Of a DNA stretch of 33,528 nt, positions 31,826 to 33,528 are shown one piece after another. The stretch covers positions 1 through 33,528 of the forward strand of contig PZPI01000004.1 of the NCBI GenBank assembly GCA_003045935.1, read 5' to 3'. The notes below the pieces were generated by a model that was not told the origin of the DNA, did no database searches, and saw nothing but the letters and a program-made list of their open reading frames with translations. A program made the position numbers and the translations under genes. Position 1 is the stretch's first letter, and every line of letters begins with the position of its first letter. Origin of the DNA: Bacteroidota bacterium (lineage in GTDB: Bacteria > Bacteroidota > Bacteroidia > Flavobacteriales > Flavobacteriaceae).

Positions 31826-31834
31826 TAGTCTGTT

Positions 31835-31882
31835 GGAGGAAAGATTTGAACTGATTGCAACCTCGTAAAAAATGCTAAAGCA
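31835..31882 (+). ncRNA. SAM-II riboswitch aptamer
   Basis: GGAGGAAAGATTTGAACTGATTGCAACCTCGTAAAAAATGCTAAAGCA: P1 GAGG/CCTC, conserved GATTT, TGATTGCAA, AAAAAATGCTAAA; located before metK. Confidence 0.92.
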
Positions 31883-31960
31883 GTATTCGTGTCGTAATAG
31901 CCCGTTGTGCTTTAGTCTCTTTTAGAGTGTTGTAATCTTCTGAATTAAAGAGACACGAAT
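31875..31960 (+). promoter_or_regulatory. Candidate expression platform of the SAM-II riboswitch with competing helices
   Basis: CTAAAGCA (31875-31882):TGCTTTAG (31908-31915); ATTCGTGTC (31885-31893):GACACGAAT (31952-31960); GTCTCTTT (31915-31922):AAAGAGAC (31947-31954). Confidence 0.6.
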
Positions 31961-31961
31961 T

Positions 31962-33230
31962 ATGTCATATTTATTTACATCAGAGTCAGTTAGTGAAGGG
32001 CATCCTGATAAGATTGCCGATCAAATTAGTGATGCGCTACTGGATCATTTTTTAGCATTTGATCCGCAAAGTAAAGTGGCGTGTGAAACACTCGTAACTA
32101 CAGGTCAGGTAGTCTTGGCAGGAGAGGTTAAAAGCTCAACTTACCTAGACGTGCAATCGATAGCTCGTGGAGTAGTTAATTCTATCGGATACACTAAAGG
32201 AGAATACATGTTTAGCGGTGATTCTTGCGGGGTAATCTCCTTAATCCACGAACAGAGTCAAGATATCAATCGAGGTGTTGATCGTAGTGCTCCAGAATCT
32301 CAAGGTGCTGGAGACCAGGGAATGATGTTCGGATATGCAACTTCAGAAACCGAAGAATACATGCCCCTTGCCTTGGTTATTTCTCACGAGATTTTAAAAG
32401 TTCTGGCAGCGTATCGCCGAGCGTCCAATGGAGACTCTTCGAAGCCGATGAACTATTTACGTCCCGATGCAAAAGCTCAAGTCACGTTGCAGTATAACGA
32501 GAACAATCAGCCGGAGCGAATAGATACTATTGTTGTGTCTACCCAGCACGATCCTTTTGATAACGAACAAAACATGCTTGATCAGATAAGAACTGATATT
32601 ATCAAATACGTAATACCTGAAGTTAAGCAGCGAATGAGTGATTCGGTTCAGTCCTTGTTTACCGATAAAATCAACTATCACGTTAATCCAACAGGTAAAT
32701 TTGTGATTGGAGGTCCCCATGGAGACACGGGGTTAACGGGTCGTAAGATTATTGTAGATACCTACGGTGGAAAAGGTGCACACGGAGGAGGAGCGTTCTC
32801 AGGAAAAGACCCATCAAAAGTAGATCGATCTGCAGCGTATGCAGCACGCCATATTGCTAAGAATCTAGTAGCTGCAGGTATAGCTTCTGAAGTACTGGTT
32901 CAGCTTAGTTATGCAATCGGTGTAGCAGAGCCTACCTCTGTTTTTATTGATACTTATAGAACGAACGCTACTTCATTCACTGATGCAGAAATCGCTCAAA
33001 AAGTTGCCGAACTCTTTGATCTTACGCCTTATGGAATCGAAACACGCTTAAAGCTTCGTAACCCAATTTATAGCGAAACAGCATCTTATGGGCACATGGG
33101 AAGAAAACCGAGTAAGGTGGTTAAGATTTTTGAATCACCCTACAATGGGAAGGTTGCGCGTGAGGTTGAGTTGTTTACTTGGGAGAAGCTCGATTATGTG
33201 GAACCTTTGAAAAAAGCATTTCTGGGTTAG
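31962..33230 (+). CDS. metK: S-adenosylmethionine synthetase
   Basis: [92 protein letters not shown]. Confidence 0.99.
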
Positions 33231-33321
33231 TTAAAAATCTAATCATTTAACCCTTCTTTTGAATTATTTTCAAACGAGGCTTGTTTTTTATGAAACCTTT
33301 TCTGTAATTAGCGCCGATATT

Positions 33322-33384
33322 ATGAACAAGACACGCTTTTATAACAACTTTGCTTACTTTAACTATTATCAGTTAGAGAGGTAG
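33322..33384 (+). CDS. Putative Phe/Tyr-rich leader peptide MNKTRFYNNFAYFNYYQLER
   Basis: 20 codons, 3 Phe and 4 Tyr, ending just upstream of an antiterminator/terminator pair and pheA; too short for the supplied ORF track. Confidence 0.8.
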   Translation: MNKTRFYNNFAYFNYYQLER

Positions 33385-33424
33385 GGGCTTATCGTTATTT
33401 AACGTATCAATATAATAAAGTCCC
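33384..33424 (+). promoter_or_regulatory. Candidate antiterminator helix of the pheA attenuator
   Basis: GGGGCTT (33384-33390) pairs AAGTCCC (33418-33424, one G-U), the latter being the 5' arm of the terminator. Confidence 0.6.
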
Positions 33425-33442
33425 GTTTTTCGGGACTTTTTT
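33417..33442 (+). terminator. Intrinsic terminator/attenuator before pheA
   Basis: AAAGTCCCG-TTTTT-CGGGACTTT followed by TTT, ending 7 nt before the pheA ATG. Confidence 0.9.
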
Positions 33443-33448
33443 CGTTTT

Positions 33449-33528
33449 ATGAAAAAAGTAGCCATACAAGGGGTCGACGGATCGAACCATTACATCGTAG
33501 CACAAGCGTTATATCCAGAGGGAGTGAG
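33449..33528 (+). CDS. pheA: Prephenate dehydratase, 5' partial
   Basis: MKKVAIQGVDGSNHYIVAQALYPEGV..., resembling the N-terminus of Bacteroidota prephenate dehydratases; runs off the window end. Confidence 0.75.
   Translation, partial: MKKVAIQGVDGSNHYIVAQALYPEGV

Follow-up and report, generated by a model that had tools for sequence, protein, structure and literature searches.

A very probable leader-peptide attenuator with mixed phenylalanine and tyrosine codons upstream of pheA in Flavobacteriaceae

Introduction

How might a cell decide whether to transcribe a pheA gene that has a terminator placed immediately in front of it? The question is raised by the window, that is, the whole stretch of 33,528 nucleotides analysed here, which is contig C137 of a 1.56-Mb, 96.5% complete assembly. 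It ends after the first 26 codons of pheA, the gene for prephenate dehydratase (33449–33528, + strand, starting MKKVAIQGVDGSNHYIV... and cut by the contig end). A preliminary description had pointed to a short ORF rich in Phe and Tyr codons ahead of the terminator and read the whole as an attenuator worked by a translating ribosome. The conserved codons, covarying arms, spacing and fold model reported below support that reading. The element is very probably a ribosome-mediated (leader-peptide) transcription attenuator of a pheA–aminotransferase–tyrA–DAHP synthase/chorismate mutase operon.

The leader in the window

The features of the leader all lie on the + strand. The candidate leader ORF, present just where it had been described, is 20 codons long including the stop (33322–33384; translation MNKTRFYNNFAYFNYYQLER*) and has three Phe and four Tyr codons; an aromatic content of 7 in 19 codons is attained by 0.095% of base-shuffled ORFs (p ~0.001). 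Region 1, the 5′ arm of the 1:2 protector hairpin, lies within the ORF at 33348–33364 and folds with 33371–33386. The latter, the 3′ arm, overlaps region 2, the two together spanning 33371–33390 as placed by 2:3 covariation and footprint distance. Region 2 is GGGGCTT (33384–33390), the 5′ arm of the antiterminator, and it does start on the last base of the leader stop codon. Region 3 (33417–33425), delimited by covariation, comprises both the antiterminator 3′ arm AAGTCCC (33418–33424) and the terminator 5′ arm AAAGTCCCG. Region 4 (33431–33442), found by terminator scan and 3:4 covariation, is the 3′ arm CGGGACTTT of the intrinsic terminator with its T-tract.

The terminator itself, AAAGTCCCG-TTTTT-CGGGACTTT, occupies 33417–33439, is followed by TTT and stands right before pheA, as claimed. 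Since pheA begins at 33449, the end point given earlier for the element, 33451, falls on the final base of the pheA ATG. An extra hairpin, CTTTAACT-ATTATC-AGTTAGAG (33357–33378), had also been proposed; it exists but is not separate, being the upper part of the longer 1:2 helix, in which the first bases of GGGGCTT are tied up. The leader folds with a z-score of −5.05, matched by none of 200 shuffles, and a scan from 33200 gives two terminator-like sites (a single palindrome, counted on both strands) against 0.2 expected. The GGGGCTT/AAGTCCC match in the window is weak by itself (p ~0.02), so the case leans on conservation.

A probable promoter consists of TTG at 33281–33283 and a variant −7 box, TAATTAG, at 33305–33311 (+ strand), recognized from its sequence and from the −12 to −5 position given for such boxes in PMC9723704. 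Across the family a TAnnTTnG box stands upstream of 138 of 161 leaders, where 13 would be expected, mostly 16–19 nt before the ATG; that of the window is one base shorter and closer to the ATG. Transcription is predicted to start at ~33316, which would leave ~6 nt of 5′ leader before the ATG. Most relatives have a predicted untranslated stretch of ~14 nt; with the −7 box so near the leader ATG, near-leaderless initiation of the regulatory peptide is predicted in the window and in these relatives alike. The phylum to which the Flavobacteriaceae belong mostly does without Shine-Dalgarno initiation.

The operon

The C-terminal half of pheA is found on another contig of the same assembly, C30; the contigs are not joined, and ~55 pheA codons are missing between them, as estimated from the closest relative. 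Beyond pheA, C30 carries an aminotransferase (PF00155), the prephenate dehydrogenase tyrA (PF02153) and a DAHP synthase/chorismate mutase fusion (PF00793 + PF01817), which bears out the expectation that the downstream gene serves aromatic biosynthesis. Of 80 named relatives, 78 share this gene order. The family assignment, Flavobacteriaceae, comes from the closest named match, a Flavobacteriaceae MAG with 86% pheA identity to a congener (G010). The leader codons thus match the end products of the operon that follows. As the operon under control comprises the common pathway together with the Phe and Tyr branches (DAHP synthase/chorismate mutase, pheA, aminotransferase, tyrA), a mixture of Phe and Tyr codons makes sense.

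Conservation of the leader peptide

The pheA upstream regions compared came from genomes within the genus, from ~85 other genera of the family and from 80 named genomes. Alignment of relatives had been suggested as a check, and on the side of the codons its outcome is clear: an aromatic-rich short ORF precedes pheA in 172 of the 174 Flavobacteriaceae loci with enough upstream sequence, against a reverse-strand background of 53 by the same loose ORF scan. Nearly all family loci have a terminator 20–50 nt past the leader stop. The 155 distinct leader peptides consist of 23.8% Phe, 14.3% Tyr and 2.9% Trp, or on average 5.5, 3.3 and 0.67 residues per 23, and every one of them contains both Phe and Tyr. 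The aromatic fraction is 0.429 in frame, 0.135 and 0.195 in the other two frames and 0.161 in shuffles. When similar leaders are compared, aromatic codons differ by 618 synonymous and 293 non-synonymous changes and the other codons by 920 and 1785. By this measure the aromatic codons are under purifying selection, and the synonymous bias suggests that the ORF is translated.

The codons are also placed with regularity. Counted from the first base of the last aromatic codon, the distance from the aromatic run to region 2 is 11–15 nt in 135 of 153 leaders. Phe or Tyr make up 80–100% of the codons 12–23 nt upstream of region 2 and almost none of those at 0–11 nt. A ribosome reaches ~12 nt downstream of the codon that it is reading (PMC4833913), and the gap is thus about one ribosome footprint. 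In the window the last aromatic codon, a Tyr at 33367, begins 17 nt before region 2.

Three competing helices

Pairing was counted in 28 length-matched relatives, all of one clade, for three mutually exclusive helices. The 1:2 helix is 89.7% paired with 15 both-side changes, controls with a slid partner reaching at most 57%, and supplies the family counterpart of region 1 in the window. The 2:3 helix is 94.9% paired and the 3:4 helix 97.8%, each with both-side changes at four pairs. The covariation score of each of the three is reached by none of 500 shuffles, slid controls being at most 60%. Over 161 relatives the terminator helix, 3:4, shows 98% pairing and 105 double changes (0 of 500 shuffles). 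Swapping region 3 among leaders tells the same way, the native sequence beating a foreign one 3005 times, losing 383 times and tying 637 times. The antiterminator and terminator arms therefore covary in relatives, which was the other half of the suggested check, and the layout, as read from the alignments, is the full classical 1:2 / 2:3 / 3:4.

The commonest class change in region 3, GTCCC/GTCTC (the C and T classes), has occurred only ~4 times on the pheA tree, so the sequence counts overstate the number of independent events. Rarer variants with matching partners (GTTCC, GTCCT, ATCCC, AGCCT and CCCGG) add further events; independent pairs chosen on the tree number only three, too few for statistical testing. 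Alignment of all 161 leaders by MAFFT shifted region 2 of the GGGAC class by one base relative to that of the GAGAC class, and the resulting 2:3 count of 63% was discarded in favour of the length-matched set of 28 and the swap test. Within that set (alignment A2, L026:1304–1423 and 27 relatives), Trp versus Tyr/Phe at columns 21/72 covaries with the region 2 base, G-C accompanying Trp and U-A or U-G accompanying Tyr/Phe, so that codon identity at this position is tied to RNA structure.

Fold models indicate how the helices might exchange. Until region 3 has been transcribed, region 2 pairs with upstream leader RNA at a median modelled probability of 0.80. The value for the window is 0.55, a modest 1:2 helix that is weaker than in most relatives, its overlap with the control codons being supported family-wide. 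With the polymerase past region 3 and region 4 still unmade, the modelled probability of 2:3 in the window is 0.96 if the ribosome occupies the last Tyr codon and 0.00 if it has reached the stop codon; the medians over 159 relatives are 0.97 and 0.00. The complete leader always folds into the terminator, which wins at equilibrium, and hence the choice of antitermination must be kinetic and made during transcription, as in classical attenuators.

Proposed mechanism

From the codons, helices and spacing we infer a course of leader translation, stalling and readthrough that would respond to both Phe and Tyr and probably switches on aromatic amino-acid synthesis when either is short. Transcription would begin just 5′ of the leader ATG. 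With charged Phe- and Tyr-tRNA plentiful, the leading ribosome would reach the stop codon and cover region 2 (33384–33390), leaving regions 3 and 4 to pair as the terminator. Were Phe or Tyr short, the ribosome would stall in the aromatic run, whose last codons are at 33364–33369, and would melt region 1; region 2, left free, would then pair with region 3, the terminator would be blocked and RNA polymerase would go on into pheA. Should the leader not be translated at all, the 1:2 hairpin would protect region 2 and favour termination, an effect expected to be stronger in most relatives than in the window.

Which amino acids may be sensed

That the leader responds to both Phe and Tyr is the reading we hold with good, if not full, confidence. 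It has to be weighed against a simpler one, in which Phe alone is a true signal and Tyr is tolerated, the codons UAU/UAC being one base from UUU/UUC and satisfying the RNA structure. Such a single amino-acid attenuator would account for the preponderance of Phe over Tyr in the leaders of the family (5.5 versus 3.3 per leader) and for the codons nearest region 2, which at 12–18 nt are 73–82% Phe. It would also suit the one codon position in the 28 leaders that shifts among Trp, Tyr and Phe together with its region 2 partner (columns 21/72), a coupling by which base pairing dictates part of the aromatic identity. It does not readily explain why Tyr is kept in 155 of 155 leader peptides or why 61% of the codons at 21–23 nt before region 2 are Tyr. 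The window itself has four Tyr against three Phe, both of the aromatic codons nearest region 2 are Tyr, and the operon holds tyrA and an enzyme feeding both branches. Sensing of Phe alone accordingly seems rather unlikely.

Distribution in Bacteroidia

The survey outside the family covered 40 Bacteroidia loci of ~7 kb. Of the 29 in which a DAHP synthase gene lies alongside pheA, 28 have an aromatic leader (one of the 28, L267, is doubtful), as does 1 of the 11 in which none lies there, this one being on a contig that ends early; the association has a Fisher p of ~1e-7, uncorrected for relatedness. Tyr is retained in the leader where the operon is pheA–DAHP synthase–aroA–aroC or pheA–DAHP synthase alone (L264, L290). 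Leader and terminator are both absent in two families, f5 (L294, with pheA apart from other genes in the examined locus) and f15 (0.6-Mb genomes), and 28 loci from elsewhere in the phylum yielded no such leader. As judged from these loci, the attenuator is conserved across the class Bacteroidia.

A broader hypothesis, which we put forward tentatively, is that a pan-aromatic attenuator was ancestral to Bacteroidia, a single leader weighing how much Phe and Tyr, and in many lineages Trp, is available, because its true target is the entry enzyme, DAHP synthase/chorismate mutase. The leader is indeed kept where this enzyme is in the pheA operon, even where tyrA is absent (L264, L290), and is missing elsewhere. 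Trp, Tyr and Phe interchange at one leader column, and leaders contain 104 Trp against 37 by shuffle. Trp was considered as a firm third signal and set aside, as part of this excess goes with the pairing of columns 21/72; that Trp is sensed as well seems less likely than not.

A probable role for translation

The alternative hairpins and terminator are conserved, and their association with an aromatic operon is near all-or-none; both would equally be expected of a riboswitch, T-box or protein-bound leader that sensed an aromatic compound directly, without translation. Such direct sensing is nevertheless very improbable. No Rfam family was found at gathering score in the window leader or in the pheA leaders of the 11 relatives scanned, the alignments have no conserved aptamer core, what is conserved being in-frame codons with synonymous drift and paired arms, and the spacing fits a ribosome. 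The proposal that the terminator is simply that of metK, and the ORF an accident of AT-rich sequence, draws on the position of metK, which has the same orientation, ends at 33230 and has no terminator-like site between its end and the leader (scan from 33200), but we regard it as already refuted by the comparative evidence, since 114 of 152 relatives have their upstream neighbour in the opposite orientation and still keep leader and terminator, so that the terminator is not serving an upstream gene, and since the in-frame aromatic content, the synonymous bias and a promoter-like box between metK and the leader also speak against it.

Relation to known systems

The ribosome-mediated attenuator proposed here uses a familiar mechanism. 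With the enterobacterial pheA leader (RF01859 Phe_leader; E. coli pheL) it shares a leader ORF, 1:2 / 2:3 / 3:4 switching, an intrinsic terminator and a place upstream of pheA, although the window leader scores 21.5 bits with that model, below the gathering threshold of 55. The E. coli leader is Phe-only, whereas the present one mixes Phe with Tyr, and often Trp, and controls a four-gene operon that includes tyrA and DAHP synthase/chorismate mutase. A similar logic is seen in the E. coli ilvGMEDA leader, with Ile/Val/Leu codons, and the thrABC leader, with Thr/Ile codons, where one attenuator likewise has control codons for several end products of a branched pathway; the family is aromatic here, the phylum different and the sequence unrelated. 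According to PMC2965389, published in 2010, Proteobacteria and Actinobacteria were the only groups with demonstrated leader-peptide systems until the Firmicutes case that it reported itself.

Within the phylum, the Bacteroidete Trp leader, Bacteroid-trp (RF01692; Weinberg et al. 2010, PMC2864571), is also a leader-peptide attenuator of an amino-acid operon, but its codons are Trp, its operon is trp and it is a separate sequence family; its model matched only upstream of trpE in one member of the family Flavobacteriaceae (L332) and neither in the window nor in the pheA leaders of 11 relatives. For Flavobacterium psychrophilum, a 2021 study describes a structured 5′ element of pheA, conserved in other Flavobacteriaceae and lacking an Rfam hit, and, separately from it, ‘strong clues’ that leader peptides act as attenuators upstream of amino-acid operons (PMC9723704). 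Gene and family are the same as here; what the main text of that study says of pheA comes without leader sequence, codon analysis, covariation or class-wide survey. It had been remarked that dual Phe and Tyr sensing in Bacteroidota would be noteworthy; the element is new only in part. The pheA leader family is missing from Rfam and was hinted at in PMC9723704, and is in that sense largely anticipated for Flavobacteriaceae; its anatomy and range are new, that is, the codon-level, covariation and class-wide evidence, the mixed Phe/Tyr(/Trp) control codons and the link to DAHP synthase.

The result is a concrete, testable account of aromatic amino-acid regulation in most flavobacteria and many other Bacteroidia, and the leader is ready to become a new Rfam family that would annotate many genomes. 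The exact distance between ribosome and antiterminator, the matching Trp and His leaders described below and the tie to DAHP synthase make this a clean natural system for studying how one leader integrates several amino acids.

Other leaders and RNA switches

Trp and His operons serve as matched controls. A Trp-rich leader (WW/WWW) precedes trpE in 29 of 30 family genomes, and a leader with HHH or longer precedes hisG in 18 of 20. The genome of the window has its own examples: a trpE leader, MIQIRTNKNWWRSS, with terminator AAAGGCCTGTCATCGCGACAGGCCTTT (L352, contig C127, ~2113–1990, − strand), not reported by the Rfam Bacteroid-trp model at gathering score, and a hisG leader, MNKTTHRHHPYHYAHAR, with five His and then a probable terminator (L366, contig C61, ~1225–1335), for which there was no Rfam match. 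Taken with pheA, leader codons fit the downstream pathway in three separate operons. Before trpE, most family members have the WWW form.

Immediately upstream of the pheA leader, metK stands between two unrelated RNA switches, for a SAM-II riboswitch (Rfam RF01726, 61.9 bits against a gathering score of 44) lies upstream of it at 31830–31888 (+ strand). A second SAM-II is found at L103, 1928–2003.
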